Shown one piece after another: positions 15,828-38,468 of a DNA stretch of 64,000 nucleotides. This DNA is from Streptomyces sp. NBC_01232 (GTDB lineage: Bacteria > Actinomycetota > Actinomycetes > Streptomycetales > Streptomycetaceae), in the NCBI RefSeq assembly GCF_035989885.1, contig NZ_CP108519.1, positions 26,158 to 90,157 on the forward strand, in the 5' to 3' direction. The notes under the pieces are model-generated. The model had not been told where the DNA came from. It saw nothing but the letters and a program-made list of their open reading frames with translations, and searched no databases. How positions within the stretch are numbered: the stretch's first letter is position 1; every line of letters starts with the position of its first letter. The translations under genes and the position numbers were made by a program.

Positions 15828-18227
15828 TCAGCCGAACGGTGCCACCCACAGTTGGGTGGTGCTGTCGCGGGGGGTGGCAAGGACGGTGGCAAGGATGGTG
15901 TTGTCGCAGGAGAACGCCACCGCGGAGACTGTGCCGGTTTGTCCGGTGAGGGGGTCGCCGACGGGCTGGCCGGTGACCGGATCCCACAGCCGAACCGTGC
16001 CGTCGGCACCCGCGGAGGCGAGAAGACGACCGTCGGAGGAGAACGCCACTGCGGAGGCTGGTCCGGTGTGTCCGGTGAGGGGGTCGCCAACGGGCTGGCG
16101 GGTTACCGGGTCCCACAGCCGAACCCTGCCGTCCCTGCTGGCGGAGGCGAGGAGGCAGCCGTCGGGGGAGAACGCCACCGCGGAGACTGTGCCGGTGTGT
16201 CCGGTGAGGGGGTCGCCGACGGGCTGGCCGCTGACCGGGTCCCACAGCCGAACCGTGCCGTCGGCACCCGCGGAGGCGAGAAGGCCACCGTCGGGGGAGA
16301 ACGCCACTGCGGAGACTGGTCCGGTGTGTCCGGTGAGGGGGTCGCCGACGGGCTGGCCGCTGACCGGGTCCCACAGCCGAACCGTGCCGTCGGCACCCGC
16401 GGAGGCGAGAAGGCGGCCGTCGGGGGAGAACGCCACTGCGGAGACTGGTCCGGTGTGTTCGGTGAGGGGGGCGCCGACGGGCCAGCGGGTTACCGGGTCC
16501 CACAGCAGAACCCTGCCGTCCCTGCTGGCGGAGGCGAGGAGGCGGCCGTCGGGGGAGAACGCCACTGCGGAGACTGGTCCGGTGTGTCCGGTGAGGGGGG
16601 CGCCGACGGGCCAGCGGGTTACCGGGTCCCACAGCAGAACCCTGCCGTCGTCGTGCGCAGAGGCAAGGATGGTGCCGTCGGGAGAGAAGGACACCGCGAT
16701 GGCCCGGCTGCCCGCCTTGAGACCGGGCAGCATCACCGGATGCCCCTGTCGTACGGCGTGCAGCACGGCCCGTTCCGCGAGGCAAGCGTCCGATGGTAGT
16801 GGCTGCCGGACTTCCTGCTCGTACAGCCTTACCGTGCCGGTAGTACCGGCGGTGACGAGGAGGCGGCCGTCAGGCGAGAACGCCACCGTATTGACCAGCT
16901 TGAGGTGGTCGGGGAGGGGGTCGCCGACGGGCAAGCCGGTGACCGGGTCCCACAGCCGGACGAGGCCGACCCTGCCAACCCTGCCTTCCCCGCCGGCCGT
17001 GACGAGGAGGCGGCCGTTGGGGGAGAACGCCACTGCGGAGAGTGCGTCGGTGTGTTCGGTGAGGGGTTTGCCGACGGTACGGCGGGTGATCGGGTCCCAC
17101 AGCCGAACCGTGCCGTCGGCACCCGCGGAGGCGAGAAGGCGGCCGTCGGGGGAGAACGCCACCGCGCGGGCCCTGCTGGTGTGTCCGGTGAGGGGTTTGC
17201 CGACGGTACGGCGGGTGACCGGGTCCCACAGCCGAACCGTGCCGTCGGCACCCGCGGAGGCGAGAAGGCGGCCGTCGGGGGAGAACGCCACTGCGGAGAC
17301 TGTGCCGGTGTGTCCGGTGAGGGGTTCGCCGACGGGTCGGCGGGTGACCGGGTCCCACAGCCGAACCGTGCCGTCGGCACCCGCGGAGGCGAGAAGGCGG
17401 CCGTCGGGGGAGAACGCCACTGCGGAGACTGTGCTGGTGTGTTCGGTGAGGGGTTCGCCGACGGGTCGGCGGGTGACCGGGTCCCACAGCCGAACCGTGC
17501 CGTCGGCACCCGCGGAGGCGAGAAGGCGGCCGTCGGGAGAGAACGCCACCGCGCGGGCCCTGCTGGTGTGTCCGGTGAGGGGTTCGCCGACGGGTCGGCG
17601 GGTGACCGGGTCCCACAGCCGAACCGTGCCGTCGGCACCCGCGGAGGCGAGAAGGCGGCCGTCGGGAGAGAACGCCACCGCGAGGACCGCCATGCCGTGG
17701 GCGAAGGACGACTGGTACCTGACATGTGGCCCAACTTCCCGCGAGTCCAAGGCGGGTACGGCCAGCTCCAGCTCCCTGCCAGTCGACTCGGGCACGGAAG
17801 GAGCCAGCGACACATTACTCTCCACGGTCTGGACGCCGGAACCAGGCGATGACGGTGCTGCGACTTTCCGACGGCGTGCCTGCTTCGCCGTGGCGATGGC
17901 CATCCAACGTTCGTACCACTCGTCCAACTTGGGATCCGCGTACGCCGGCGGATCGCACTCCCTGCCGTACTTGTCCCACGACAAAAGAGTCCGGACAAGC
18001 CACATCAGCCTGTCCTGACCCAGATAGCCGCCACTGAAAGCGGCGCTCTGCGTAGCGGGCGGCAAGGACACCTTCTCGTCGGCGAACAGCTTCTTGGCAC
18101 GGGCCTCGATCGTCCGTAACGACGGATTGCCCCGCTGCACCTTCAGCCGCGTCAGGCACTGCGCCTGCTCCTGCAACAGCTCCTCGTACGTGCCCGCGCC
18201 GCCTGCCGCCCCGCGCTGCTCCGCCAT
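15828..18227 (-). CDS. HTH-like / 14-blade WD40 repeat protein
   Basis: The 799-residue protein has an N-terminal helical domain (1-120, with YEELLQEQAQCLTRLK and a WYERWMAI end) like the degenerate HTH domain that precedes WD40, NTPase or protease domains in actinobacterial signalling proteins. After a linker come 14 WD repeats, recognisable as VAFSPDGRLLASAGADGTVR with LWDP, which should fold as two seven-bladed propellers. Blades 6 and 7 are longer and most diverged, and mark the boundary. WD40 propellers are protein-binding scaffolds or sensors. The gene is divergent from a tiny membrane protein. ATG 18227 follows GGGGCGGGG and starts the conserved part. Confidence 0.88.
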   Translation of the reverse strand: MAEQRGAAGGAGTYEELLQEQAQCLTRLKVQRGNPSLRTIEARAKKLFADEKVSLPPATQSAAFSGGYLGQDRLMWLVRTLLSWDKYGRECDPPAYADPKLDEWYERWMAIATAKQARRRKVAAPSSPGSGVQTVESNVSLAPSVPESTGRELELAVPALDSREVGPHVRYQSSFAHGMAVLAVAFSPDGRLLASAGADGTVRLWDPVTRRPVGEPLTGHTSRARAVAFSPDGRLLASAGADGTVRLWDPVTRRPVGEPLTEHTSTVSAVAFSPDGRLLASAGADGTVRLWDPVTRRPVGEPLTGHTGTVSAVAFSPDGRLLASAGADGTVRLWDPVTRRTVGKPLTGHTSRARAVAFSPDGRLLASAGADGTVRLWDPITRRTVGKPLTEHTDALSAVAFSPNGRLLVTAGGEGRVGRVGLVRLWDPVTGLPVGDPLPDHLKLVNTVAFSPDGRLLVTAGTTGTVRLYEQEVRQPLPSDACLAERAVLHAVRQGHPVMLPGLKAGSRAIAVSFSPDGTILASAHDDGRVLLWDPVTRWPVGAPLTGHTGPVSAVAFSPDGRLLASASRDGRVLLWDPVTRWPVGAPLTEHTGPVSAVAFSPDGRLLASAGADGTVRLWDPVSGQPVGDPLTGHTGPVSAVAFSPDGGLLASAGADGTVRLWDPVSGQPVGDPLTGHTGTVSAVAFSPDGCLLASASRDGRVRLWDPVTRQPVGDPLTGHTGPASAVAFSSDGRLLASAGADGTVRLWDPVTGQPVGDPLTGQTGTVSAVAFSCDNTILATVLATPRDSTTQLWVAPFG
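15880..17690. repeat. Tandem about 129-bp WD40-coding repeats
   Basis: The WD blades are encoded by repeats of about 129 bp that are nearly identical at DNA level; long runs coding for the DGTVRLWDP region recur with few changes. Such uniformity suggests recent duplication or gene conversion and makes copy number prone to change. Confidence 0.8.
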
Positions 18228-18280
18228 CCCCGCCCCCACTGCTCTGTGGGAAGCCACGCTAGAGCCCCAGCGCGGCACAA

Positions 18281-18408
18281 CACCGAACTTCACCGAACTT
18301 CCCGGAACAACCCCGAACGGCGATGAGCGAGCGCAATGCGTTCGGTCGCACACGGCCGCTGTACGGCGATGCCATCCAGCTGATCAGAATTCTCCGGGGT
18401 TGTTCGAT
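18281..18408. promoter_or_regulatory. Divergent promoter region with repeats
   Basis: A tandem pair of CACCGAACTT fills 18281-18300. A GAACAACCCCG motif follows near 18305 and reappears inverted as CGGGGTTGTTC near 18398. The region separates the WD40 gene from the divergent small membrane protein gene, so these are candidate operators. Confidence 0.45.
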
Positions 18409-18446
18409 ATGCCCAGGTCACAGCCCTGGAGTCGCACATTCGAGAC

Positions 18447-18674
18447 ATGACCACGGATCAGAACTCGCAGCCCACCACCGGATCACCCGACGAGGCTGCC
18501 GCCCAGCCGTTCCTGTCCCTGCACACCACCGTCGTACTGCTCACCGCCCTCGTGATCGGCCTCGTTATGGGCGGGCTCACCTTCCTCACCGGCACCTCCG
18601 CAGCGGCCGCCCTCATCGTGGGACTGACCGGCACCGGTGTCAGCACACCCGTCCTGCGCAGCCTCATCCGTTAA
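18447..18674 (+). CDS. Small two-span membrane protein
   Basis: The 75-residue protein has a polar N terminus and two hydrophobic helices, SLHTTVVLLTALVIGLVMGG and a Thr/Ala-rich AAALIVGLTGTGVSTPVL. It is divergent from the HTH/WD40 gene across a repeat-rich gap. Tiny membrane proteins also face two other HTH-fused genes in this window (27875-28075 and 38295-38468), so it may be the membrane partner of the WD40 protein. No family is recognised. Confidence 0.6.
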   Translation: MTTDQNSQPTTGSPDEAAAQPFLSLHTTVVLLTALVIGLVMGGLTFLTGTSAAAALIVGLTGTGVSTPVLRSLIR

Positions 18675-18808
18675 AGGTCGGATGTCGTCGCCTCCGCCGT
18701 CGCGGCCATGCTCACCGACCACGACCCCGCCGTGGTTACCTCCACGTGGACCGGGGCCCGTGCTCCGCCGCCCCGCACCCCAGAGCTGGCCGCCCACCAG
18801 CACAACCA

Positions 18809-18852
18809 GGCCCCCCCGGGGCCGCCCTCATCGAAGGGCGGCCCCGGGGGCC
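18809..18852 (+). terminator. GC-rich hairpin terminator
   Basis: A long stem pairs the GGGGCCGCCC side ending at 18827 with GGGCGGCCCC from 18836, followed by TTCTTGCGTTT. This is the form of an intrinsic terminator for transcription running rightwards from the small membrane protein gene. Confidence 0.7.
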
Positions 18853-19075
18853 TTCTTGCGTTTCTGGAGCACTTCAGCCCGACCGGCCTCACCTCTGGTC
18901 AAAGGCCCACATGGGGGAGCAGCAGTGCTGTGACGGACGGCAACCCCGCGAATTTCCTGCACTTCGCGAGAGACGTCGTGGGCTCCTTTAGATGCGGCAC
19001 CGCCCCGGATCCACGCGGTCGGGCTGCACTGCCGGGAACACCCGGCAGCAGGACCTCACGAAAGGGACCACGTAC

Positions 19076-19204
19076 GTGAACACTCACCCCGGAGGAGGCG
19101 CCGGCCCGCGCCTGTCCGTGCTGCTCGTGGTGGCGGCCGCCGCCGTTGCAGCCGCGCAGAGCGAGGCGTGGGCGACCTGGGGGGGGTCCTTCATTACGCC
19201 GTAA
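19076..19204 (+). CDS. Possible 42-residue hydrophobic peptide
   Basis: A GTG at 19076 with AAGGGA upstream opens a frame for a short peptide with one hydrophobic helix (LSVLLVVAAAAVAAAQ) that ends inside the first parS-like palindrome. Composition is compatible with a signal peptide or membrane anchor. It could be a chance frame; the ribosome site and hydrophobic pattern are the only support. Confidence 0.3.
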   Translation: MNTHPGGGAGPRLSVLLVVAAAAVAAAQSEAWATWGGSFITP

Positions 19205-19206
19205 TG
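19192..19206. other. parS-like palindrome, copy 1
   Basis: The 15-bp palindrome CATTACGCCGTAATG lies about 30 bp beyond the parB stop. It is the same site as copies 2 and 3, read on the other strand. Confidence 0.75.
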
Positions 19207-19235
19207 AAGGACCCCCCCAGGTGGTGCGGAGACGG

Positions 19236-20339
19236 CTATGCCAACAGCTCGGCCAGCTGCTGTCGATATTCGGGGCTTGTGCTGGCCCGCAGTTCTTCGG
19301 CGAAAACCTCTGGGCCGCCGACCAGTTCGATGTAGCGGGCGATCGCCCGGTCTCGCTGATTGTGTTGGGTCAGCTTGCTGAACGCGATGTCCATGGCGGC
19401 GGCGCCATCGGCCCACGGCATCTTTACAGGCGCTGGCATGGGTACTGGGCCACGGGCAGCCGGCACGCCGTCCGTGCCGGGGCCTGTATCGATGGCCTTG
19501 GGGTCGGCGGTCTTCATTACGGCGTAATGGGACCGGTCGGGCTCGCCAGCTGCGGGGAACTCCGGCTCATCCTCTGCGGCGCTCGGCGTGGGCTCCGGGC
19601 GTGTGGGGGCCGGTACTCGCTTCTTGGCTGCCGCCTTCTGTTCCTTGAGGAGTTCGAGGTGTGCGGCTTGCTCCTCCGGCTTCTTGTTTCCGACCCTGCG
19701 GAGAAGTTCTGCGGGCTCTTCGCCGGCTACCAGCTTGCTCTGGAGCTCGGGGGTCAGCCCGAGGAGGGCCAGACGTTGCGAGACCCAGCCTTGTGAGCGG
19801 TGGAGTCGGGCTGCCAGCGCTTCTTGAGTGCCAGCGCTCTGCAGGAGTTGCTGAAGTACGCGGGCTTCGTCGAGAGGCTCGAGGTCCTGGCGGTGGATGT
19901 TCGCGACAAGTGAGGATTCGAGGATCTCATCGGCGGTGTTGCCAAGGTCTTCGTCAAGCATGACCTTGATGTCGCTCAGGTCGGCCTCACGTGCTGCTGC
20001 CAGGCGGGAGTTGCCGTCGATGACGACGTACTCGGCGCCTTCGTCCAGATCCTCGGCCCGGTCCGGGTTGGCTTCGAGGTAGGAGAAGCGCGACATGATC
20101 GTGATCGCTTGCTTCTGGCCGTGGTCACGAAGGCTGGCTGCGAGGTCGCGAAGGTCCCCGAGCGTCGTGCGGGGGTTGGCCGGGTTCAGGCTGATAAGAC
20201 TCACCGGGAGTTTGACCGGAGGGAGCGCGCCTTCGGTCGGCGCGCTGGTGGCCGCGTCGATGGCCTGGCGCCGGGCGCTGACGTTCTGCGTCTGCGTGAA
20301 CGAAGCGCCCTTACCCAGTCGTGATGCCTTGCTGCTCAT
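19236..20339 (-). CDS. parB: Partition protein ParB
   Basis: The 367-residue centromere-binding protein has the ParB/Srx N-terminal domain (PVSLISLNPANPRTT, then VIDGNSRLAAA) where family members bind CTP, and a central helix-turn-helix (TQEALAARLHRSQGWVSQRL). A Lys/Pro/Glu-rich linker and a small C-terminal helical dimerisation-like end follow. In this linker the DNA itself contains the second parS-like palindrome. The ATG at 20339 starts the conserved part and overlaps the parA stop by 4 bp, so the pair forms one operon. ParB loads at parS and stimulates ParA to segregate the replicon. Confidence 0.92.
   Translation of the reverse strand: MSSKASRLGKGASFTQTQNVSARRQAIDAATSAPTEGALPPVKLPVSLISLNPANPRTTLGDLRDLAASLRDHGQKQAITIMSRFSYLEANPDRAEDLDEGAEYVVIDGNSRLAAAREADLSDIKVMLDEDLGNTADEILESSLVANIHRQDLEPLDEARVLQQLLQSAGTQEALAARLHRSQGWVSQRLALLGLTPELQSKLVAGEEPAELLRRVGNKKPEEQAAHLELLKEQKAAAKKRVPAPTRPEPTPSAAEDEPEFPAAGEPDRSHYAVMKTADPKAIDTGPGTDGVPAARGPVPMPAPVKMPWADGAAAMDIAFSKLTQHNQRDRAIARYIELVGGPEVFAEELRASTSPEYRQQLAELLA
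19515..19529. other. parS-like palindrome, copy 2, inside parB
   Basis: CATTACGGCGTAATG lies within the parB coding sequence and encodes part of its linker. It is identical to copy 3 and to the reverse complement of copy 1. Confidence 0.75.
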
Positions 20340-21577
20340 GCGATCTCCCGTGCGAGCGCGCGCAGGGCGACGGCCTGCGTGCACTGAGGTGCGTAGGCGA
20401 GCAGAGGCTGCTTCACGCGCACTGCTTCCTTCTGTTCTTTCAGGTCGCCGATGAGTCCGACGACGCGTGGGTTCCTTATGGCCATCCAGCTCTCCAGCGA
20501 GGAGGTGGCGATGTATCCGCGGCGGGCGTCGTAGTGGTTGACCACGATGCCCAGGTAGTCCAGTTCGAGGTGCATGTCCGAGCGCAGGTCGTCGATCTGG
20601 CTGGTCAGCAGGCCGTAAGCGTCCGCGGAGCTGTCTTCTGCTTGGACCACTACGAGGATGCCGGAGTTGCCAGGTGCCTCGGAGTCGCGGCGGCGGCCGT
20701 AGTAGGCGGCCGCGTCCATGCTGAGCCCGAGGCTTGGGGGGCAGTCGATGAGGATGACGTCGTAGTCCGACTCGACGGGGGACAGGGCTCGTTCGAGTGC
20801 GGCCTCCCGGGCGCGTACGCCGGAGAGCTTCACGTCGAGGAGGAACGCGTCCGTGCAGGAGGGCAGCAGGTGCAGCCGGTCACCGAAGCGTTCGTCGGCG
20901 ACAGTGACGATGAGGTCCTTGAGCTTTCCATGTGAGTCCCCGCCCATGTGCTTGGTGAGGCTGTCGCCGTCCAGGGGCAGAAGGTCATGTCCCAGCTGCT
21001 TGGTGAGGTGTCCCTGGGGGTCGAAGTCGACCAAGAGGACACGAAGGCCGAGTCCGGGGAGGTCCTCCAACTCCAAGGGGGTGGCATCCGGGTCCGCCTC
21101 GGCGAGGGCATGCGCGAAGTGCTTGGACACCCCGACGGGGTGCAGGGTGTCGGGGTCCTCTGCCATCGCCTCGGCGGCACCGGCGGCCACCGCGGTCTTG
21201 CCCACACCTCCCTTCTGGTTGCAGACGACGATGCGTCGTACGACCGAGGGGCGCTGCACGCCTGGGGCTGGGTGCGTCTCCAGCCACAAAGACACCGACT
21301 GCGCAAGTCCCTGGATGAGGGAAACGCCCCGATGGGTGCAATCGGCTCGGAATGCATCCCACTGGCCCTCCGGCAGCCATGTCGAGAAAGACTTGGCGCC
21401 AGCGGTGTCGACGGGGGAGAGGTTGGACCCGAGGCCGCGCCAGGCGGTGACCCCCTCTTCCACCGCGTGCTGGATGTCGATGCGGAGCTGAGCGGTGCGG
21501 ACCTTCAGCTGTTGCTGCAGAGAAGGGGGCAGCTTGGAGACGACTTTCTCCCGATCCCCCGATGGCGTCGATGACAT
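20336..21577 (-). CDS. parA: Partition ATPase ParA
   Basis: The 413-residue Walker-type partition ATPase carries a deviant Walker A, KGGVGKT, at about residues 122-128, the Walker A-prime VLLVDFDPQGH, and Walker B VILIDCPPSLGL. The first about 110 residues are an extension with helical, possibly DNA-binding character, as in longer plasmid (type Ia) ParA proteins that also autoregulate. It is the first gene of the parAB operon. A parS-like palindrome stands about 65 bp upstream of its start, where it could serve both as centromere and operator. Confidence 0.93.
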   Translation of the reverse strand: MSSTPSGDREKVVSKLPPSLQQQLKVRTAQLRIDIQHAVEEGVTAWRGLGSNLSPVDTAGAKSFSTWLPEGQWDAFRADCTHRGVSLIQGLAQSVSLWLETHPAPGVQRPSVVRRIVVCNQKGGVGKTAVAAGAAEAMAEDPDTLHPVGVSKHFAHALAEADPDATPLELEDLPGLGLRVLLVDFDPQGHLTKQLGHDLLPLDGDSLTKHMGGDSHGKLKDLIVTVADERFGDRLHLLPSCTDAFLLDVKLSGVRAREAALERALSPVESDYDVILIDCPPSLGLSMDAAAYYGRRRDSEAPGNSGILVVVQAEDSSADAYGLLTSQIDDLRSDMHLELDYLGIVVNHYDARRGYIATSSLESWMAIRNPRVVGLIGDLKEQKEAVRVKQPLLAYAPQCTQAVALRALAREIA

Positions 21578-21642
21578 GATGACACCTTACTAACATTCAA
21601 GATCAATTTCATGCATGGCGCGTTACCTTGGATGGCCAGTCT

Positions 21643-21657
21643 CATTACGGCGTAATG
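21643..21657. other. parS-like palindrome, copy 3, upstream of parA
   Basis: CATTACGGCGTAATG lies between the parA start and the gene-free region upstream. With copies 1 and 2 it brackets the par operon. Confidence 0.75.
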
Positions 21658-22201
21658 GAGCCGTGCTCGGGATGCGGAGACAGAACCGCACAAACCGACA
21701 GCGACCGCACCGCGATCCGCACGCCGACAGAGCTGCAGCCGACCACCAGCGGTAGGCGCCCCGCCAGATCGAGGCGCACGGGAGTGTGTACCCCCACGCG
21801 GTGATGGCTGACCGGAATTTGGCCGTAAAACCGAACCGCTAAGAAAGCCCAATATTGCGCCGCATGATAGGCGCACGTCTCGACCGCGCCGACCGCGCCG
21901 ACATGCTGCGGGCGCTGCTCTGGGTGAGCGAAGTCCGCATAGCCGGCGACCTCGCTGCCGCGCGACGCGGATCCCCTGGACGTCTACGGAGAGGCTCGGG
22001 GCGGCTTCGCCAAGGTCGGGGTGGATACCTACGACCGTGCGCACGATTCGGATGAGGCTTTGGGGTTCGAGGGGTGGCCGTTGACCGTCGTGAAGAGATG
22101 GGCGGTGTCGTCGCGGGCGGTGGCGCGGTGGGGAGCCGTCACGAGCTGATACCCGTGCTGCGCGAGACGGCACTACCCCGGCACACCGAACTCTTCACCC
22201 C
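21658..22201. other. Intergenic, no gene seen
   Basis: This stretch upstream of parA contains no reading frame with protein-like composition. Part of it (about 21820-21860) is relatively AT-rich. It probably holds the parAB promoter on the parA side and untranslated sequence of the acetyltransferase operon on the other. Confidence 0.4.
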
Positions 22202-22759
22202 TCACACCTCGGGCTGCAGCGGCTTGATCATGGATCGGTACACCGGCGCGCCGTCCCATGGCTGAGTGACGCCCACCAGTTCGTAGCCCAGGCGCTCGTA
22301 CCAGGCGGCGGCCGGCGCTTCGGGGCGGACGGTGAGGGTGACCCGCTCTGCGGTGACTCCGTTCAGCAGGGCGGCGTGCAGAGCCCGGCCGACGCCAAGG
22401 CCGCGACGGTCCGCGAGTACGGCGAGTTCCATCACGACGAAGGTGCGGCGGCCGTCCTCGCGGGTGAACTCCTCGGGCAGGGCGGTGTTCAGGAATCCGG
22501 ACCACCATCCGGTGGTGGATGCGAGGGGGAGGCCGTAGGCGAACCCGGTGAGCTCGCCGCCGTCGCGGGCCAGGACCAGGCGGAAGCCGGGCGTCTTGTG
22601 CTCGCGCTGGTAGCGCTCCAGGAACTCGGCGACGTCACGAGGTCCCTCGTTGTACGGGGGCTCTGCGAACACGGCTTCATAGACCGGGGCGAGGTCGTCC
22701 AGCTCCCGCCCGGCGGAGACGGTGTCGGTGACGGTGGTGTATTCCACGGGACTCCTCAT
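22202..22759 (-). CDS. GNAT family N-acetyltransferase
   Basis: The 185-residue protein has the GNAT fold: an N-terminal PPYNEGPRDVAEFLERY region, central strands with FRLVLARDGGELTGFAYGL, the acetyl-CoA loop region ELAVLADRRGLGVGRALH (an R/Q-X-X-G-X-G/A variant), and the typical AWYERLGYELVG near the end. It would transfer an acetyl group from acetyl-CoA to an amine of unknown identity. ATG 22759 overlaps the stop of the TPR regulator, so the two genes are one operon and probably act together. Confidence 0.85.
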   Translation of the reverse strand: MRSPVEYTTVTDTVSAGRELDDLAPVYEAVFAEPPYNEGPRDVAEFLERYQREHKTPGFRLVLARDGGELTGFAYGLPLASTTGWWSGFLNTALPEEFTREDGRRTFVVMELAVLADRRGLGVGRALHAALLNGVTAERVTLTVRPEAPAAAWYERLGYELVGVTQPWDGAPVYRSMIKPLQPEV

Positions 22760-25032: not shown

Positions 25033-25035
25033 CCC

Positions 25036-27874: not shown

Positions 27875-28075
27875 CTAGCGGCCCCCCTTCGGGCCGCCGT
27901 CCTGCGGCCGCCGCCACGCGGCGTACAACACTGTCGCGGCGGTGGCATATCCGGCGAGGTCCTGAGGGGTGCTGTGTCCGACCAGGACAAAGACACTGAC
28001 GACCAGGAGCACCGCCAAGAAGACAAGAAGGTCACTGGGGATACGAGGGTCGCGAGACTTACGGTTGAAAGACAT
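27875..28075 (-). CDS. Small two-span membrane protein
   Basis: The 66-residue protein begins MSFNRKSRDPRIPSDLLVF and has hydrophobic helices LLVFLAVLLVVSVFVLVG and AGYATAATVLYAAW, with a basic Gly-rich tail. GGAGAG lies upstream of ATG 28075. It is divergent from the HTH/trypsin-like gene, repeating the pattern of a tiny membrane protein opposite an HTH-fused protein. It probably sits in the cytoplasmic membrane; its function is unknown. Confidence 0.65.
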   Translation of the reverse strand: MSFNRKSRDPRIPSDLLVFLAVLLVVSVFVLVGHSTPQDLAGYATAATVLYAAWRRPQDGGPKGGR

Positions 28076-28272
28076 CGTTCTCTCTCCAGAGGGACGGGAT
28101 CTGCCGCGCAGCGCGCCAACGTCGTTGCGGCAGTTCGGTGTGGAAGCGGGGCACCTTGTGGTGCCCCGCTTTCTATTGCGCCCCCGTTTCCCGAGTGCCT
28201 CGCACGCCCCGGACACTCGTCCCGCAAATCCTGCTGTCACCTGGAGAGAGATCCGCTGCTGGCACTACGCTC

Positions 28273-28291
28273 GCTGACACTTGCTGACACT
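28273..28291. promoter_or_regulatory. Tandem GCTGACACT repeats
   Basis: Two exact copies of GCTGACACT at 28273-28281 and 28283-28291 have a 10-bp period, one helix turn. They lie about 25 bp before the HTH/trypsin-like gene, a position that suits an operator for its own HTH domain. Confidence 0.45.
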
Positions 28292-28314: not shown

Positions 28315-29280
28315 TTGCAGCGCAGAGGGAGCCGGGGCGTACAGATGCCTCCGCTGGAGGAGTTTCCCGACGGTCCACGCCGGACAGTGCTGGAGAACTT
28401 GCACGCCCTGTACCGGGCAGCAGACAGACCCGGCGTGCGCACGATCAGTGACGGTCTTGCCGACGGGGACTTCCGGGCCACGATGAATCGGACCCTCGTC
28501 TCGCAGGTCTTCCGAGGCGATCAGTGGCCCACCGCCTGGCAACTCGACAGCCTCGTACGCTGGCTCACCGGGCGGGCGATCGACGGCAGAGACCCGGATG
28601 CCGAAGCCAACCGCTTCCTCGCGCTGTACCAGCATGCTGAGGCCGCAGGAGATCTGACATCCAGAGCGCCCGTCGCATCCCGGGCATCACTCCTGGTCCA
28701 TTGCGGCAACAGGCTCGGATCGGGTGTGCTCCTGCAGGACGGAATGGTACTCACCCGTGCCTACCTGGTTCAGGAAGACGAGGACCTCCAGGAGGGCAGG
28801 CAGAGACTTGCGGTGAGAGCGATCGACTCTCCCGGCGCTTGGACTGACGCAGATGTGCTCTGGCGAGATCCGGAACTGAGAGGCTTGGCCGTCCTCGCGC
28901 CGAGCGGAAGGGTCGACGGGGCAGCGGGCGCAAGGTGGGCAGCCCCACCCCCACCCGGCGCACGAGTGAGGATCTACGGCGCGCACGATTCCGACAGCGG
29001 ACGCGGCGATCTCCGCCTTGAGGGGATCTGGCTCGCGGGCACAACAATGGGCCCGACTGGGTCAGATGGCGACTGGCAGCTCGATGTATCCGTACCGCCA
29101 GGCAGCGACGGCACGTCCCCATCGAAAATCGGTAGGTGGCTCGGAGGTGCTGCCGTTCTGGACGAATCGGGCCGCGTCATTGGAGTCCTCTCTCACCAAC
29201 TGCAACGAACCAGCTTCTACTGGATGACCCCCTTCGACGTCATCACGGCGCAGGTTCCCTTACTCGCTCGACGCCGGTAG
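28315..29280 (+). CDS. HTH-like protein fused to degenerate trypsin-like domain
   Basis: Residues about 10-100 form a degenerate helix-turn-helix domain (GVRTISDGLADGDFRATM, LVSQVFRGDQWPTAWQLDSL). Residues about 125-320 follow the trypsin fold, with GSGVLLQDGMVLTRAYLV and a late GGAAVLDESGRVIGVLSHQ. In active proteases these places hold LTAAH and GDSGG; here the His and Ser positions are replaced (RAYLV, RWLGGA), so catalysis is unlikely and the domain may be a sensor or binding module. It starts at TTG 28315 with AGGGGG upstream, or at ATG 28345. It is divergent from a tiny membrane protein. Confidence 0.72.
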   Translation: MQRRGSRGVQMPPLEEFPDGPRRTVLENLHALYRAADRPGVRTISDGLADGDFRATMNRTLVSQVFRGDQWPTAWQLDSLVRWLTGRAIDGRDPDAEANRFLALYQHAEAAGDLTSRAPVASRASLLVHCGNRLGSGVLLQDGMVLTRAYLVQEDEDLQEGRQRLAVRAIDSPGAWTDADVLWRDPELRGLAVLAPSGRVDGAAGARWAAPPPPGARVRIYGAHDSDSGRGDLRLEGIWLAGTTMGPTGSDGDWQLDVSVPPGSDGTSPSKIGRWLGGAAVLDESGRVIGVLSHQLQRTSFYWMTPFDVITAQVPLLARRR

Positions 29281-30621: not shown

Positions 30622-30624
30622 CCT

Positions 30625-31407: not shown

Positions 31408-31473
31408 CAACAACTCTGCGTTCCCACTGTCATAACCCTGCGCATCCCACTGACATCAACCCTGCGCACGACA
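31402..31473 (-). repeat. Right end: three IS21-type repeat units
   Basis: Units at 31402-31421, 31425-31445 and 31448-31473 share the pattern ACTGACA-AACCCTGCG with a 23-bp period. The last is the perfect inverted partner of 27681-27706. Confidence 0.75.
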
Positions 31474-31594
31474 CCGACCACGTCGCGTACAGCCTCCGCA
31501 TGCTCAGTTCTTTCAATCCTGTTAGCACTCCAGGTATCTTCGATACGCGATCATGGATCACGATGCAGTGGGCACCGGATGAGGGGGTGGGAGG
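31474..31594. promoter_or_regulatory. Relaxase upstream region, candidate promoter/oriT
   Basis: This 121-bp gap is the most AT-rich nearby and contains a GTATC-TTC-GATAC hairpin (31534-31546) and a CGATCATGGATCACG segment. MobF relaxases often nick just upstream of their own gene, so oriT may lie here, but the nick motif is not recognised. Confidence 0.35.
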
Positions 31595-34500
31595 GTGGGG
31601 TACGCGACACCCATCTACGCCCCCGAGCAGGTCGACTACCGGCTGACCGAGGACTGCGGTTGCGACCGGGCCGAGGACGCCCAGGTTGAGTACCGGCTCG
31701 CCGGGGAGAGCACGCTGCGGTGGATCGGCAGTGGGCTGGCCGAGCTGGATCTGGTGGCCGGTGAGCGGGTCGATCCGGAAGCCGCGCACGCGCTGATGGA
31801 CGGTCGGGACTGGCGGTCCGGCGAGCAGTTGGTCGCCCGGAAGAAGGCGCTCGACCCGCGGGGGAAGGTCATCGCGCGCGTGCTTGTGGACGCTGTCTCC
31901 GAGGCGGCGGCCGCGACCGGAACGACGGTCTCGGAGTACTTGGGCCGGCCCGCGCTGGCGAAGAGGTTCGCCCGGGCCGAGCGCGGCATCCTGCGCGACG
32001 GCGAGAGTCACCTGCTGCCGCTGGCCGATGCCGAGCACCTGGCTGCGGCTGCCGGTCTCGCCCTGGACGAGCTGTACGGCGCGGACACGGTGGCCGAAGC
32101 CCGGAGGTGGATGCGGCACCACGTCGACGTCGGCCTGCGCGGCGTGGACATCACCCTCGATCTCCCGAAGAGCATCTCCGCCGCCTACGGGCTGGCCGGT
32201 GCCGAGCTCGCCGGACGGATCGAGGAGGACTGGCTGGCGTCCGTCACCGAAGCCGTGCACGCACTGGAAGGGTGGGCGGCCTACGGGATGGCCGGCCACC
32301 ACGGGGACGGCCGGCAGGCCGAGCGGGTGGAGACGTCCGGGCTGATCGGCTGGACGACCCTGCACCGTTCCGCTCGCCCGGTCGATGGCTCGCCCGGAGA
32401 CCCGCACCTGCACGTCCACGTGAACATCGCGCACATGGCGAAGTGCCTGGACGGCAAGTGGCGCACGATCGCGGGCGGCGGCGAGGACCTCCACCGCTAC
32501 GCCCACCTGATCAACGAGATCGCCGAGGGCCGGCTCCGGGCCCGCCTGACAGAGACGCACGGCGCCCGCTTCGAGCGCTCGGAGACCACCGGGGCGTGGG
32601 AGCTCGCCGGGGTCGACGAAGGCCTTCGCGACGTGTTCTCCCGGCGGCACCAGCAGGTTCTCGAGCTGGCGGGCGAGGGCGCCTCACGGGACCAGCAGAA
32701 GACGGCCGCCCGCAAGAGCGCGGAGGCCAAGGAGGACGTCGACTCGGGCGCGCCGAGGGAGGCCTGGCGCACCCGGGCGGCCGCAGAACTCGGCGGCGAG
32801 GCCGCCGTCGACGCGATGATCGCGGCCGCCCTGCCCGGGCCTTCCGGGACAACGCCGCCGCTGTCTGCGGGCGGCGGCCCGCGGATGCCGAGCCCAGCGG
32901 AGATCGCGGCTCAGATCTGGGATGCCGAGCACGGGCTGATCGCGTCTCGCAAGACGGTCTCCCACACGCACGTGATGGCGGCCGTCGCGAAGACGCTGCC
33001 CTACCTGCTGTCGGCGCAGCAGCTGACCGCGCTGACGGACGACGTCCTTGCGGTGGGCGGGCATGCGGTCCGCCTGGCCGACTCCAACCGCGGCCATCAC
33101 GCCCACCGGCAGCGCTACACCCACACCACGGTCGTGGCCGCGGAGCAGACCGTGATCGAGTGGGCCTCGGCCGGTCTCGACCAGCACCTGGCCCAGCTGA
33201 CCGTCGAGGCCGCCGAGCTGACGCTCTCCTCCGTCGAGGTCACCAACTCCACCGACGGCCGCCCCTTCGTCTTCAGCGCCGAGCAGCGCGCCGTGGTGAT
33301 GCGACTGCTGACCGCAGGGCACGCGGTCGACGCCGTCATCGGTGTCGCCGGTGCGGGCAAGACAACCCTCATGCAGGCCGCCCGCACCGGCTGGGAGGCG
33401 GCCGGACTGCGCGTCGTCGGCGCCTCCACCGCGGCCGTCGCCGCTGCGAACCTGGCTGCCGAAGCCGGTATCGAGTCCCAGACCATCGCCGCGTGGACCC
33501 GGGAGGTCAGCGGCGGCCGCGGCCTGCACGGGGTCGGCGTGCTGGTCATCGACGAGGCCGCGATGGTCGACGACCGGGCGCTCGCCGCACTCCTGCGGCA
33601 CGCGGCCGACACCGGCACCAAGGTCGTCGCCGTCGGCGACCCGCTTCAGCTGCGCGCGGTCGGCATCGGAGGCGGCTTCGCCCGGATCCACCGCATCGTC
33701 GATGGCCTCGAACTCACCGAGAACCGCCGCCAGCGCGACATCGTGGAACGGGCTGCTCTGCAGGACTGGCGCAGCGGCGGCCGCACCAGCGCGCTCGCCG
33801 CCTTCGCCGCCCACGGCCGCGTCCACGCCGAGGACACCGCCACCGATGCCCTGACCGCCATGCTCGGCGCCTGGAACGAAACCCGGACCCGCTGGGCCGG
33901 TGACCCCCACGGCCAGGTCTCCGACCTTCTGCTGCTCGCCGCCCGCCGCGCGGACGTCGCCACCCTCAACGCCGGCGCCCGCGCCGCGCTCGTCGCCTCC
34001 GGAGGGCTGGAGGCAGGCCGCACCTACGCGGTCGCGGGCGGGGGGCGGATCCAGTTCGCGGCCGGGGACCTGGTCCACATCCGGCGCAACGACTACCGCA
34101 GTCGGCGCGGCGAGTCCGCGGTAGACGTCCTCAACGGGTTCCGTGGCGTCGTCCTGGACGTCGACGCCAAGCGGGGCGTTCTCGTCCAGTGGCGCCGTCC
34201 CCAGCCGGCCGGCGGGTTCGTGATGAGCGAGGCCTGGATGTCCGCCCGCGACATCGCGGAGGGCCGCCTTACCCACGCCTACGCGATGACGATCGGATCC
34301 GCGCAGGGCCTGACTGCCGAAGTCGCCATTGCCTACGGCCTGCACGCCGACTCCCACAGCCTCTACCCGGCCATGTCCCGGGCCCGACAGGAGAGCCACC
34401 TCCACCTGCCGCTCGACGAACTGGAGGACCACCCCACCCGGGCCGCCCTCGGGCCGGTCCGCACCGACGCCGACCGCCTGGACCGTGCGGTCGCTGCGTA

Positions 34501-35488
34501 CGGCCGCATCCTGCAGGCCGACGCCGAGGACACCATGGTCACCGACGAGCTCACCGGCATCCCCGCCGCCCGGACCGTGGTCAGGGAAGGGCCTGCCTAC
34601 ACCCCGTGGCAGCAGCGCCCGTACGGTCACCTTCCCTCACAGCACCTGGCCGCCCGGGCAGCCGAGGAGACCGCGGCCGCGCAGCGCGCCGAGCACTTGG
34701 CCGCCGAGCACGGGCGTCAGGCCGGTGAACAGCAGCGCCGCCTGGATGCCCCCGTCACCCCGGGAGGGGCACTCGCCGCCGAGGCGTACGACGTGCTCTC
34801 CCGGGCCGGCGGCTGGACGCAGAGGGCGCGAGAAGAAGCAGAGCGCCAGGCAGCGGCCCAGCGGCACGCCGTGTCGACGCGCCGGATTCTCGACCAGATC
34901 GAGCAGTCCGCGCAGAAGGGCCGGATAGCGCTCCGGCTCGCCGGCACCAGCCGGAAGGGAACCGCCGCTCTCACCGCCCAGTACCAGCAGCAGCACCTGG
35001 CCGCGGTCGACGAAGCCCAGCGGGCCTCGCGCGCCTCCGCTCAGGCCCTGCGCGAGGGCTGGCAGGCCCTCACCGGCTACCAGCACGCGTCCCTGCTGAT
35101 GCAGGGCGGGACCCTGATCACGCCCAGGGACGTTCCGGGGATGGAGCCGGTCCTGGAGGCGATGCAGCAGCGCGTGCCCGTCCTGGCCGACCGGCTCGAT
35201 ACCCGCATCGCTGAGGACATCCAGCAGTTGCGCGAGAGTTCCGGATCCCAGCGGACGGTGGCCGCACGCCACCGTGCGAACGTCGTCGCGATGCAGCAGG
35301 AGAACGCCCTCCGCGAGGAGATGCAGGTCGCCGCTCCGCTCCGCCATGCCCGCGAGATCGACGAGCGCGCCAGCGCGGTGCAGGGGCGCCATGGGCAGGC
35401 ACCTCCCAGGCCAGCGACGCGGGTACCTTCCCCCTCACCACACCACCCTGCCCCCACCGATCCCAGGGCTCAGCTTCCGCGACCGTGA
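31595..35488 (+). CDS. MobF-family relaxase-helicase (TraA/TrwC type)
   Basis: The 1,297-residue protein would nick and unwind one strand for conjugation. The N terminus (YATPIYAPEQVDYRL) supplies candidate catalytic Tyr residues, and the metal-binding triad is HLHVH at about residue 270, the HUH motif. Segments RGVDITLDLPKS and GMAGHHGDGRQ are typical of actinobacterial TrwC relaxases. A RecD-like helicase follows: Walker A GVAGAGKTT at about 583, Walker B VLVIDEAAM at about 649, and late TIGSAQGLT and YPAMSRARQE motifs. The last about 300 residues are coiled coil and linker. GTG 31595 fits the conserved N terminus. Confidence 0.93.
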   Translation: MGYATPIYAPEQVDYRLTEDCGCDRAEDAQVEYRLAGESTLRWIGSGLAELDLVAGERVDPEAAHALMDGRDWRSGEQLVARKKALDPRGKVIARVLVDAVSEAAAATGTTVSEYLGRPALAKRFARAERGILRDGESHLLPLADAEHLAAAAGLALDELYGADTVAEARRWMRHHVDVGLRGVDITLDLPKSISAAYGLAGAELAGRIEEDWLASVTEAVHALEGWAAYGMAGHHGDGRQAERVETSGLIGWTTLHRSARPVDGSPGDPHLHVHVNIAHMAKCLDGKWRTIAGGGEDLHRYAHLINEIAEGRLRARLTETHGARFERSETTGAWELAGVDEGLRDVFSRRHQQVLELAGEGASRDQQKTAARKSAEAKEDVDSGAPREAWRTRAAAELGGEAAVDAMIAAALPGPSGTTPPLSAGGGPRMPSPAEIAAQIWDAEHGLIASRKTVSHTHVMAAVAKTLPYLLSAQQLTALTDDVLAVGGHAVRLADSNRGHHAHRQRYTHTTVVAAEQTVIEWASAGLDQHLAQLTVEAAELTLSSVEVTNSTDGRPFVFSAEQRAVVMRLLTAGHAVDAVIGVAGAGKTTLMQAARTGWEAAGLRVVGASTAAVAAANLAAEAGIESQTIAAWTREVSGGRGLHGVGVLVIDEAAMVDDRALAALLRHAADTGTKVVAVGDPLQLRAVGIGGGFARIHRIVDGLELTENRRQRDIVERAALQDWRSGGRTSALAAFAAHGRVHAEDTATDALTAMLGAWNETRTRWAGDPHGQVSDLLLLAARRADVATLNAGARAALVASGGLEAGRTYAVAGGGRIQFAAGDLVHIRRNDYRSRRGESAVDVLNGFRGVVLDVDAKRGVLVQWRRPQPAGGFVMSEAWMSARDIAEGRLTHAYAMTIGSAQGLTAEVAIAYGLHADSHSLYPAMSRARQESHLHLPLDELEDHPTRAALGPVRTDADRLDRAVAAYGRILQADAEDTMVTDELTGIPAARTVVREGPAYTPWQQRPYGHLPSQHLAARAAEETAAAQRAEHLAAEHGRQAGEQQRRLDAPVTPGGALAAEAYDVLSRAGGWTQRAREEAERQAAAQRHAVSTRRILDQIEQSAQKGRIALRLAGTSRKGTAALTAQYQQQHLAAVDEAQRASRASAQALREGWQALTGYQHASLLMQGGTLITPRDVPGMEPVLEAMQQRVPVLADRLDTRIAEDIQQLRESSGSQRTVAARHRANVVAMQQENALREEMQVAAPLRHAREIDERASAVQGRHGQAPPRPATRVPSPSPHHPAPTDPRAQLPRP

Positions 35489-35559
35489 ACGCCGCCTTCT
35501 AGCTCTGGGTCTGCTCAAATCCGGTACGAGCAGACTTCGCGCGGTCCAGGGTCCTGGCC

Positions 35560-36339
35560 ATGGACTTCGTTCAGTGGCTTCCTGCGCTCGTTGCAACGGG
35601 GATGATCGGGATGATCGGCGCCGCCTTCATCAACAGCCGTGCTGCATTCAGGACGGCATCGAGCAGCAACGAGATAGCTGTGCAATCCGCGGCTTTGACT
35701 GCGCGAGTCTCCCTGCACACTACCTACGCCACGCCGCGCATCAAGGCCGTCACGGACTTCCTGGACGCCGTTCAGAACGGCCGCGGCGCCCCGACGCTTG
35801 AGAACCTCAGCAAGGCTCTGACCGCCTACCTGACCCTGCGCATCCTTGCCTTCGAGGAAACCAACGAAGCCAAAGACGTGACAGCCCGTGCCAAGGCCCT
35901 GACGGAGAACCTGCGCGCCATGGTGGAAAACCATCACCACGTTCCGGCCGCCCCGGCCGAGACGATGCTCAATGAGCTGGACTCCGACACCAGGAACGCC
36001 GAGGCAGAGGACCAAGAACAGCGCGAGGCCGGCACCGACATGAGCACGGACCGCGCCCGGGCCGCTCTCAGGCGCACGGCCGACCTGCGGGCCGCACTGG
36101 ACCTTCTGAGGGAACTACAACGCTCAGGGGGCGTCACCGAAGAGGGGGAAGCCGACCTGCATGGCCTCGGAGCCTGCGTCGGAATGCCCTCTCTGCACCT
36201 GGCCGTCGAGTCCCCTGTGGTCCGTACCAACCGTGCGCAGGGCCGCGCCATGTACAGAGAGGGGAACAAGCGCCTGTCGGAGGACCGCCAGGACTTCGCA
36301 GAGGCCGTGGCCCGCTGGCTGAACGCCGGACCGCAATGA
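35560..36339 (+). CDS. Membrane-anchored helical protein
   Basis: The 259-residue protein starts MDFVQWLPALVATGMIGMIG, an N-terminal membrane anchor, and then is helical with long hydrophilic stretches (FEETNEAKDVTARAKALTEN, STDRARAALRRTADLRAALD). This resembles N-anchored, coiled cytoplasmic proteins often encoded near Streptomyces plasmid genes. It converges with the HTH/coiled-coil gene on the other strand. No catalytic motif is seen and the family is unrecognised. Confidence 0.65.
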   Translation: MDFVQWLPALVATGMIGMIGAAFINSRAAFRTASSSNEIAVQSAALTARVSLHTTYATPRIKAVTDFLDAVQNGRGAPTLENLSKALTAYLTLRILAFEETNEAKDVTARAKALTENLRAMVENHHHVPAAPAETMLNELDSDTRNAEAEDQEQREAGTDMSTDRARAALRRTADLRAALDLLRELQRSGGVTEEGEADLHGLGACVGMPSLHLAVESPVVRTNRAQGRAMYREGNKRLSEDRQDFAEAVARWLNAGPQ

Positions 36340-36415
36340 TCCCGGGCGTCCAAGGCATTATTGCCGCCGACGTTCGGCTCGGTTCATCCGCGACATCCGA
36401 TCCAGGCACAGTCGG

Positions 36416-38137
36416 TTAGATCAGGCCGACTGTGCTCGCCAGCCAGCGGTTCACGGTGCCGCCCCCAGGCGCATTCGTCAGGGCTATGCCAGCCGTGATC
36501 GCATAGAGGCCGAAGACTGCTCTTTTCCTGAGAATTAGGCCGATCTCGAGAGCCAGCAGGCCCGCGCCCCAAAAGATTAGTTCCAGGACCGGCGGGCCCG
36601 GATCAGCCTCGAAAGCAGCAGCGAAGGCCGCAGAGAGGGCTGTCATCAGCAGAAGTCCCACCACATCGATGATCCACCCCAAGGTGTGGCCCAGAGGATC
36701 GGGTTGAAGTCTCTGCAGGCTCATGAATGGATGCAGGGCAGCTACGAGCACCGGGCTCACTGATCCCCCACCGACGGCTGTCCACGCGCGGTGGAATTCC
36801 GAGACCTCCCCGAGGTCGGCTCCGAGCGCGGTAAGGACGGGGTGCAGCTGCCTCCAGCGCTGGGGAAGAGTCTCTCCGGCGAACCAGCTCCTTAGGACAT
36901 CCTCCGCTACGGCGCTCTCGGTCAGACCGAAGGCGATCTCTGCTAGCCGAGAGTCCGTCACCTGCGTGTGTGCATGGGCGCGAAGCTTACGCAGCTGCGC
37001 GGCGAACTCGTCCTGCGTGCCCACTTGGACCAGCCCAGCTAGCAGTTCCGCCCGAAAGACAACAGCGTTCCTAGCCGGCCCGAGGACCGGTGGGGGCTTG
37101 TGCGCCTTGGCGACGCGGCTGCTCCCCTCCGGCGGCAGGAGGCCCTGCTGCGTCCTGTCCGGGATGGGTGCGCGTGGGACGGGACTAGAAGGTAGGTCCT
37201 CCTGCTCCAGCTGAGGATGGTCCGAGTTCGGTTTGGTGCTGGCCCGTAATTGTCCCGGGACAATCAGGAGGGAGGGTGGCGACTCCCCGTCCACGTCGTG
37301 ACCGAGCAGCGCCTCCAGGTCGCTCAGCTCAGAATCCTGAGCATCGAGCTGCTCCTGGGCGGCCTGCAAGACATCGTGAATCTGATCGAGCGGAGGAAGG
37401 TCCAGCTCGTCCGGGCCTATGCCCAGTGCACCAGCAGGGAGATCGGTCACGGTCTCGCCGATCCGCCTTAGGGCGAGCTGTGCCCGGAGGACCTGCTGCT
37501 CGGCCGCGCGGCGGAGTAGGTATGCCTTCTCCTCGGCACGGCGAGCGTGATCTAGTTTTTCGTCGGCCTGGAGCCGGTACTCCAGGGACATCTGCAATTC
37601 CCGTTCGAAGTCAGCGCGGGAGTCTTCCCGTGCCCGGTCCCGCTCGCTCGTGAGCAGAGTGCAGCGCTCCTGCAGTACTGAGACCATGTCCTCCAGCTGG
37701 AGACGGCGGCGCTCGGAGGCAGCCAGCTTCTGCATGGCCTCAATCTGCCGCAGCCTGGCGTCGTCCAGCCGCAACAGGGCTTGAGAGACCGCGTCATGTC
37801 CGCGTTGCTGAGGGCCGGGCATCGGCAGCGAGGGAGGGGCTTCCCTGTTGTCTAAGACTGCTTCGGCCGTGCGAGCAGCTTCTAGCAGGCGTAGCCCCTC
37901 GGCTAGTTGTCGCTTGCTCATCTGTGGCTCCCGAATGTACTTCTCGACCACCTCCCTGAGCAGCCTCTCGGGCAGCAACCGACTACCGCTGCGGAACTCG
38001 CTCCAGGAAGTCGTGCTGTAGGAGAAGTCCGCCTCCAGCGCTCTGACCCCCTTGCCGCCCGTCATCTTGCGCAGCCACACGGCCAGCTCGTTCGACTGTT
38101 CCGTCCGGCCCTTCAGGGCCCCCAAAGGCCGTCCCAT
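36416..38137 (-). CDS. HTH-like / coiled-coil / membrane protein
   Basis: The 573-residue protein opens with an HTH-like domain (NELAVWLRKMTGGKGVRALE, SEFRSGSRLLPERLLREVV) comparable to the degenerate HTH domains of the WD40 and trypsin-like proteins. A coiled coil of about 150 residues follows (ERRRLQLEDMVSVLQERC), a Pro-rich linker, a second helical domain (about 345-430), and two or three membrane helices at the C terminus (WIIDVVGLLLMTALSAAFAA, LELIFWGAGLLALEIGLIL). It is divergent from a tiny membrane protein with an inverted repeat between. A membrane-tethered regulator is a reasonable guess. Confidence 0.72.
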   Translation of the reverse strand: MGRPLGALKGRTEQSNELAVWLRKMTGGKGVRALEADFSYSTTSWSEFRSGSRLLPERLLREVVEKYIREPQMSKRQLAEGLRLLEAARTAEAVLDNREAPPSLPMPGPQQRGHDAVSQALLRLDDARLRQIEAMQKLAASERRRLQLEDMVSVLQERCTLLTSERDRAREDSRADFERELQMSLEYRLQADEKLDHARRAEEKAYLLRRAAEQQVLRAQLALRRIGETVTDLPAGALGIGPDELDLPPLDQIHDVLQAAQEQLDAQDSELSDLEALLGHDVDGESPPSLLIVPGQLRASTKPNSDHPQLEQEDLPSSPVPRAPIPDRTQQGLLPPEGSSRVAKAHKPPPVLGPARNAVVFRAELLAGLVQVGTQDEFAAQLRKLRAHAHTQVTDSRLAEIAFGLTESAVAEDVLRSWFAGETLPQRWRQLHPVLTALGADLGEVSEFHRAWTAVGGGSVSPVLVAALHPFMSLQRLQPDPLGHTLGWIIDVVGLLLMTALSAAFAAAFEADPGPPVLELIFWGAGLLALEIGLILRKRAVFGLYAITAGIALTNAPGGGTVNRWLASTVGLI

Positions 38138-38165
38138 CTCGCCCCCCGCATCTGGTGTTTTCCTA

Positions 38166-38187
38166 GGTACAACAAGCGGGTTGTACC
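38166..38187. promoter_or_regulatory. GGTACAAC inverted repeat in divergent promoter
   Basis: GGTACAAC at 38166-38173 and GTTGTACC at 38180-38187 are exact inverted copies with a 6-base spacer. They lie about 29 bp before the HTH/coiled-coil gene and would suit a dimeric regulator. Confidence 0.55.
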
Positions 38188-38294
38188 CGATCTTCGATCG
38201 TCGACCTGCGAGAACATCAGTCCCTCGCGGCGGACAATCACATCACCGATCACGGTGGGTCTCCACCTATTCAGACGATCACAGGAGACCTGCC

Positions 38295-38468
38295 GTGCCC
38301 GCCCTAAACTCTTCCATTCCGCCGCGCCGGTCCTGGCCCTACGTGGTGGCGGCCATCGTTGTCCTCGCCGTGCGCCAAGGCTGGGAGGCCGAGCAGGTCA
38401 TCACGCTCGCTGTCTGTCTTCTCGTCCTCATCGCCCTGGTCTCGTCGGCGAGCCCGGGAGGTGAGTAG
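38295..38468 (+). CDS. Small two-span membrane protein
   Basis: The 57-residue product starts at GTG 38295 with AGGAGA seven bases upstream. It has two hydrophobic segments, WPYVVAAIVVLAV and VITLAVCLLVLIALV, separated by an acidic turn. Size, topology and its place opposite an HTH-fused gene match the proteins at 18447 and 27875, although the sequences are not clearly alike. Confidence 0.6.
   Translation: MPALNSSIPPRRSWPYVVAAIVVLAVRQGWEAEQVITLAVCLLVLIALVSSASPGGE

Follow-up and report, generated by a model that had tools for sequence, protein, structure and literature searches.

Among the genes of a 64,000-nucleotide stretch of Streptomyces sp. NBC_01232 (positions 26158-90157, the end of the 90,157-base contig NZ_CP108519.1, here C2; hereafter the window) are three loci at which a large gene, whose product begins with a domain of helix-turn-helix (HTH) type, is transcribed away from a gene for a very small membrane protein. 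The same genome includes contigs C1 (8.66 Mb) and C3 (84.5 kb). Beyond their N-terminal heads the three large proteins carry unlike tails, namely a WD40 beta-propeller, a trypsin-like domain, and a coiled coil with membrane helices. Why should one arrangement be repeated around such different proteins? An original prediction, made from the letters of this DNA, had taken the loci for copies of an interchangeable sensor/effector system, and all three, with their divergent membrane proteins of 57-75 residues, are present where it had placed them (Table 1). A modular gene pair, specific to its HTH head, is in our judgement very likely; the head is likely to be a local DNA binder; and on balance it seems probable that each locus represents a separate copy of a switch module which consists of two genes and regulates itself. 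The modular architecture, the conservation of the small proteins, the exchange of tails and the repeat words that follow the heads are legible in the sequences themselves.

Conservation of the gene pair

The heads are designated A1 (WD40 type), A2 (trypsin type) and A3 (coiled-coil type), and were aligned from hits within the genus (16, 10 and 16 rows, respectively; row L030 of A1 was wrongly cut and adds little to the alignment). The A4 pattern, which describes small-1 of the WD40 locus, was confirmed in GTDB genomes at 23 loci, all of them in Streptomyces. At 19 of these small-1 is divergent from an HTH-headed gene, 18 having A1-type heads and one (L054) a NACHT protein whose head is of A2 type; at L067 an A1-head gene with a tetratricopeptide repeat (TPR) tail is convergent. 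For small-2, from the trypsin-like locus, a divergent head of A1, A2 or A3 type is supported by hidden Markov models (HMM; E up to 0.012) at 19 of 30 loci, and five further HTH-like heads were recognized by eye (L213, L224, L226, L227, L234), giving a total of 24; L226 provided the sole HTH match in a Pfam scan of seven small-2 partners (HTH_31, 6.5e-12). These 30 loci exclude hits without a fetched locus, the position repeats L236 and L237, the chromosome-end copy L232, the weak hits L210, L212, L214-L219, L223, L230, L231 and L233, and L043, where an A1 head is accompanied by a partner of small-2 type; the family alignment (A8) comprises 17 rows. Homologs of small-3, from the coiled-coil locus, occur in 4 of 150 genus genomes and all four adjoin A3-type heads. 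The proposed conservation of the small membrane genes beside homologs is borne out. In a class-wide sample, 8 of 296 genomes had matches to the small-2 profile, seven belonging to the same genus and one, weak, lying outside it.

Approached from the side of the heads, 13 of the 17 A1-head loci of the genus possess a divergent A4 small protein (L037 and L042 being near-identical copies from one genome); the remainder have the A6 type (L039, L043), another hydrophobic open reading frame (ORF; L040), or none (L035). A small-ORF detector registered a divergent hydrophobic ORF at 14 of the 17 A1-head loci versus 2 of 30 TetR controls, and both control ORFs look spurious; three of the 30 TetR loci are of non-standard length, so that position is approximate there.

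Mean column identity in the A4 alignment is 62%, and the third codon position is the most variable in both the A4 and A5 genes. Nine plasmid records contain a small-1 match, the gene being annotated in six and not in the other three, where the feature table is incomplete; a small-3 ortholog is also annotated as a gene. Each of the three small proteins has a two-helix topology, as read from its sequence by eye. There is no detectable homology between families A4 and A6 or between A5 and A6 (A4 and A5 were not compared), and a common ancestor is thus unsupported for the compared pairs, whose likeness is one of size and shape. None of the three has a DUF397 match. The distances among heads and among small proteins are correlated (Mantel r 0.45, p 0.0009). 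When the window was scanned with the head and small-protein HMMs, which include these sequences, just these three heads and three small proteins were recovered.

Two adjacent A1/A4 modules, L049 and L051 (NZ_JABZEE010000084.1), have near-identical heads and small proteins; their tails differ, one being WD40 and the other short and apparently frameshifted.

HTH heads

Profile comparison agrees with the claim that the N-terminal domains are related. With hhalign, A1 and A2 are joined firmly at a probability of 95% (E 3e-8), and more weakly A1 with A3 (38%, E 3e-4) and A2 with A3 (54%, E 1e-4), the HTH register being identical across the three alignments. By these values the heads are related HTH domains, weakly so in the case of A3. 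The A3 profile has PDB matches in a designed HTH protein (8tac, 8.5e-5) and in the cro/C1 regulator ClgR (3f51, 0.011); the A1 and A2 profiles matched no HTH structure there. The Pfam family HTH_31 was found at E ≤ 1 in 6 of 16 A3 heads (best 2.5e-7), 3 of 16 A1 heads (0.0055) and 2 of 10 A2 heads (4.6e-5), and the window's own heads have no Pfam HTH match. Membership of the cro/C1 type is supported for A3 by these matches, and for A1 and A2 only indirectly, through the hhalign link.

Six A2-like HTH proteins (L138, L143, L145, L149, L155, L156) measure some 140-190 residues from the start of the head and end in a DEPPF tail that resembles the acidic tip of single-strand DNA-binding proteins.

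Repeat words as putative operators

Repeats had been noted between the divergent genes, and they are indeed present in all three gaps; they are of no common kind, the words differing with the head family. For their analysis the A1 set was reduced to 27 nonredundant loci by removal of the near-identical L042, L050, L057 and L071 and the convergent L067, near-identical upstream regions were removed to leave 28 A2 and 36 A3 loci, and 27 TetR controls remained once the three of non-standard length had been set aside. In the 27 A1/A4 loci GTTC occurs 101 times (shuffled sequences: mean 24.9, maximum 39), and 50 pairs of this word lie exactly 10 bp apart (mean 0.1, maximum 1). The arrays precede the HTH gene, at many loci upstream of a TAACCT/TACTCT-like -10 element (by eye), and in 20 of the 27 loci a GAAC (GTTC on the small gene's strand) is situated at a distance of 41-49 bases from where the match to the small protein begins. 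Repeats with a lag of 10 were detected in 16 of 27 A1, 8 of 28 A2, 4 of 36 A3 and 1 of 27 TetR loci. CTGACA-type units spaced at 10 bp stand before the A2-headed genes of L133, L137, L139, L146 and L157 (by eye), and GGACAA/TTGTCC precedes A3-headed genes at 23 of 36 loci versus 4.4 expected.

The repeat word goes with the head and not with the small protein. Three units of GTTCGG at period 10 fitted nine small-2 loci having A1-like heads with 1-6 mismatches at best, against 5-8 in 13 small-2 loci with other heads and 7-9 in the 27 TetR controls (L220 and L234, near copies of L194 and L224, being excluded); at periods 8, 9, 11 and 12 no gap separated these groups. In the 8.8-Mb genome of NBC_01232 exact three-unit arrays occur at four places (two overlapping pairs), all belonging to the A1 modules on C2 and C3. 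A search of the same genome for CTGACA arrays with three mismatches gave seven places versus one for the control, none at the trypsin-like locus of the window. The repeats look like putative operators specific to the head. In L201 six tandem copies of a perfect 10-bp repeat, CCCGTACGGA, stand upstream of the A1-headed gene.

Exchangeable tails

That the system is interchangeable is supported by the occurrence of the same head and small protein with unrelated tails. At least four WD-like motifs are present in 18 tails of the 27 nonredundant A1/A4 loci; other A1 heads carry solute-binding and vWA domains (L055), TPR (L067) or unassigned domains, and by eye a nucleotide-cyclase-like tail (L053) and a zinc-ribbon-like tail (L041), neither with a Pfam match. 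Compared with the head of L034, that of L041 shows 68% identity and that of L055 67%; these alignments end near residue 115 with no significant match beyond, and the small proteins of these loci are close (distances of 0.19 for L034-L041 and 0.21 for L055-L041). Similarly, the match of protein P0005 to P0021 and P0086 covers 306-322 N-terminal residues, beyond which P0005 differs from them: its relatives retain the head and coiled coil and end in TPR (P0021) or SBP_bac_3 (P0086). The HTH protein of the window's coiled-coil locus has two C-terminal membrane helices by a simple hydropathy rule.

Among the partners of small-2, Pfam identifies NaeI-like endonuclease tails in L206 (E 2.4e-72) and L227 (E 7.2e-36), and a biotinyl/lipoyl domain in L213 (E 2.8e-15). 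The L206 tail aligns to NaeI (1ev7) at 4.4e-38 and retains the D..D-x-K stretch with its putative catalytic residues. Four NaeI-like loci, L206 (1785-3191, +), L227 (1808-3163, +), L258 and L259, consist of an HTH-like head (by eye in L227), a coiled coil and the endonuclease domain, with small-2 divergent. Judged by eye from ORF starts, no methyltransferase was recognized in 6.5 kb of L258, and one ORF in L259 begins like a methyltransferase.

The trypsin-like protein of the window (P0004) has, by eye, Y and G at the positions that align with the two catalytic residues of the S1 motif, His and Ser, both of which are lost. In an alignment of nine such sequences, inspected by eye, Ser is missing from eight, P0004 included, and P0014 alone keeps both His and Ser. 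An active protease as the effector of this window is therefore rejected; a PDB search with P0004 gave no match. A PADLOC-DB scan of ten proteins yielded no defence match save that of P0001 to a HEAT-ARM model, through its WD40 part. As to the notion that tails act as sensors or effectors, several do look like sensors and the NaeI-like ones like effectors, but the trypsin-like tail has lost its catalytic residues. The WD40, TPR, solute-binding and dead-protease tails likely provide input, the NaeI-like tails less so.

Table 1. Position of the three loci and their elements within the window
Feature	Position	Strand	Remarks
HTH-headed WD40 gene (A1-type head, beta-propeller tail)	15828..18227	-	ATG at 18227
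A1-type HTH head, locus 1	17868..18197	-	HMM 8.2e-45 (this sequence is part of the model); joined to A2 head by hhalign
Putative operator array, four GTTC words at exact 10-bp steps, before WD40 gene	18279..18318	-	Like arrays in relatives
Lone GTTC facing small-1 gene	18402..18405	+	45 bases before ATG (start to start)
small-1, 75-residue membrane protein	18447..18674	+	Family A4
small-2, 66-residue membrane protein	27875..28075	-	Family A6/A8
Inverted repeat with perfect 12-bp arms and a 4-bp loop, AAGCGGGGCACC/GGTGCCCCGCTT	28144..28171	.	Between small-2 and trypsin-like genes
CTGNCA words at 28234, 28259, 28274, 28284	28234..28289	+	Final two CTGACA, 10 bp apart
HTH-headed trypsin-like gene (A2-type head)	28345..29280	+	Catalytic His and Ser replaced
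A2-type HTH head, locus 2	28345..28638	+	HMM match
HTH-headed coiled-coil gene, C-terminal membrane helices (A3-type head)	36416..38137	-	
A3-type HTH head, locus 3	37835..38131	-	A3 profile matches cro/C1-type HTH structures
Inverted repeat GGTACAAC/GTTGTACC	38166..38187	.	Variant of relatives' GGACAAC/GTTGTCC sites
ATTGTCC site	38232..38238	-	Between HTH and small-3 genes
small-3, 57-residue membrane protein	38295..38468	+	Family A5; GTG start

Genomic setting

Directly after the WD40 locus are a ParB-like (19236-20384) and a ParA-like gene (20336-21577), both named by eye, and for this reason C2 is probably a plasmid, the module adjoining what appears as its partition region (19236-21577). 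The three plasmid records with homologs that were inspected are of linear topology. An inventory of the genome revealed seven small-2, three A4 and one A5 matches. A small-2 module is found twice on C1, 46 kb from either end (L224 and L232, C1:46126 and 8613779), in an apparent terminal inverted repeat. Plasmids, chromosome ends, several paralogs in one inventoried genome, and nuclease and NACHT tails together make a setting which points to conflict, stress or plasmid-host interplay.

Proposed switch and alternatives

In the switch module that we favour three parts would be constant: the HTH head of cro/C1 type at the N terminus, an operator specific to that head within the promoter region that both genes share, and a divergent membrane protein of some 57-85 residues. 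The exchangeable part would be the C-terminal tail of the HTH protein. The heads would bind the operator, those of the A1 and A2 types as several adjacent subunits with one to each 10-bp turn, and may so keep the two genes at a low set point. Once the tail met its trigger, or were itself activated, binding by the head would be altered and the expression of both genes would rise. The small protein might then act at the cytoplasmic membrane, either as an output common to the modules or by partnering the HTH protein there. A membrane-acting output or toxin is a possible role, and one that suits a small protein which stays constant under changing tails; a tether or regulator of the HTH protein is just as possible, since NaeI-like and NACHT tails suit a tail that is itself the effector with the small protein as its membrane partner. 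Some other role is unlikely.

Several observations weigh against this reading. A divergent small gene is near-obligate for A1 heads, but the detector was positive at just 6 of 30 A2-head and 10 of 30 A3-head loci (12 of 40 for A3 with longer flanks and HMMs, the contig-end locus L264 included), so that it is a minority feature of those heads, the arrangement is not universal and the head family extends beyond the pair. Shorter or co-directional small-ORF candidates, below the detector's threshold, are present at some A2 loci. Membrane helices in the tail do not appear to substitute for the small gene, which accompanies 6 of 27 A3-headed proteins with a helix and 5 of 12 without (39 uncut loci, L264 excluded). 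Conversely, small-1 lacks an intact head at 3 of 23 GTDB loci (L058, L065, L069) and small-2 an identified one at 6 of 30 (L202, L208, L211, L228, L229, L238); at E 0.05 Pfam finds no HTH in the partners of L228 and L238, in the by-eye partners L213, L227 and L234, or in the weakly HMM-supported L206. The A3 sites look, by eye, mostly inverted and unlike 10-bp direct repeats, and an exact GTTC pair at 10 bp is present in only three of the nine small-2 loci with A1 heads. In the genome itself an exact three-unit array is missing at two of the four A1-headed genes (C1:1180k, C1:6148k), and arrays with one mismatch occur seven times on C1 and once at the C2 module, with one for the backwards control pattern. 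The correlation between head and small-protein distances may be just shared descent, and NaeI-like tails argue that some tails are effectors.

Four other explanations have to be set beside the switch. It is somewhat unlikely that the pair is a toxin-antitoxin (TA)-like module, in which the small protein would be a membrane-depolarizing toxin (holin-like or type-I-toxin-like), the HTH protein its repressor, and the tail would decide when repression is lifted, in abortive infection or plasmid addiction. The small size and hydrophobic helices suit it, as do the HTH gene placed as a divergent repressor in the window and at the 19 small-1 loci, the GTTC word at its conserved place before the small gene, and the occurrence of copies on contigs of plasmid size and near this genome's chromosome ends. 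Type II TA pairs, however, are usually co-transcribed and not divergent like these; small genes without a detected HTH partner exist, PADLOC-DB offers nothing beyond the one WD40 match, and small-1 and small-2 have no match at E 0.1 in 50,697 phage records (small-3 was not searched there). To no greater probability can we put a membrane tether or anti-regulator, the small protein binding the HTH protein at the membrane to gate its access to DNA or to position a tail that is the effector. NaeI-like tails with their putative catalytic residues, the NACHT tail of L054, the correlated distances and the want of a recognizable methyltransferase in L258 (though not in L259) are in its favour. However, small-2 pairs with heads of several subfamilies, so that a specific contact with the head would need to be loose; tail helices do not clearly replace the small gene, and some proteins, that of the coiled-coil locus included, have both.

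That the tandem words belong to a global regulator such as a PhoP-like response regulator, and not to the HTH head, is very unlikely. GTTC direct repeats do resemble the PHO boxes of Streptomyces, but the period of the latter is 11 and here it is 10. The word also differs from one head subfamily to another and is retained with its head where the small partner is a different one, and the exact three-unit arrays of the genome are confined to A1-headed genes. Binding of a PhoP to direct repeats is stated in the portion covered of one report (PMC4832192). Scarcely credible is a coincidence of ordinary XRE-family regulators with unrelated small membrane genes. Both HTH regulators and small ORFs are frequent in Streptomyces, and A2 and A3 heads are often without the small gene; homologous small proteins nevertheless recur with homologous heads and different tails, and the contrast of the A1 and small-1 loci with the TetR controls leads us to reject it.

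A bolder form of the switch reading, rather unlikely as it stands, is that these modules are plug-in immune or stress switches of Streptomyces, the heads sitting head to tail on 10-bp operator arrays, which would line up their large exchangeable tails along the same face of the DNA, and the trigger of a tail releasing a shared membrane-acting peptide. If so, one genome would run about ten separately addressed sensors into one kind of membrane response. Should the switch module as such be correct, WD40, pseudo-protease, NACHT, NaeI-like nuclease and solute-binding domains would fall under one regulatory logic. A recurrent gene pair now annotated as "hypothetical" would become defined, several families of small membrane proteins would gain a partner, and the head-specific DNA words would help to find further copies.

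Comparison with known systems

Class II holins and small membrane toxins are like the small proteins in having some 60-75 residues and two hydrophobic helices, though small-1 and small-2 are unlike class II holins in their lack of phage matches. The tails of L206 and L227 resemble the type IIE restriction endonuclease NaeI, down to the D..D-x-K stretch, but here a head and coiled coil precede the endonuclease domain and small-2 is paired with it. The XRE-DUF397 pairs of Streptomyces (Scr1/Scr2 and relatives) likewise set an XRE-type HTH regulator beside a small protein; according to the portion covered of PMC10364602 the latter has 63-96 residues, and the pairs, with many paralogs per genome, were proposed as TA systems and found to act as regulators. 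That small protein carries DUF397 and is encoded downstream of an XRE-DUF5753 gene, as far as that source was covered, whereas here it is a divergent membrane protein and the tail of the regulator is exchangeable. EAD/VMAP and related nucleoside triphosphate-dependent conflict systems, also present in Streptomyces, combine a constant adaptor with interchangeable trypsin-like, STAND NTPase and TPR domains, and the parts covered of PMC7159879 and PMC8195603 do not describe this gene pair; here, by contrast, an HTH of DNA-binding type forms the constant part, and it comes with repeat words of its own and a small partner in the membrane. A survey of the literature by title and opening of the abstract, in which few subscription journals were covered, gave no description of an HTH-head/membrane-peptide pair. 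Set against these systems, the HTH-headed gene and its divergent membrane peptide look like an uncharacterised plug-in switch of Streptomyces, whose variable part differs from copy to copy.

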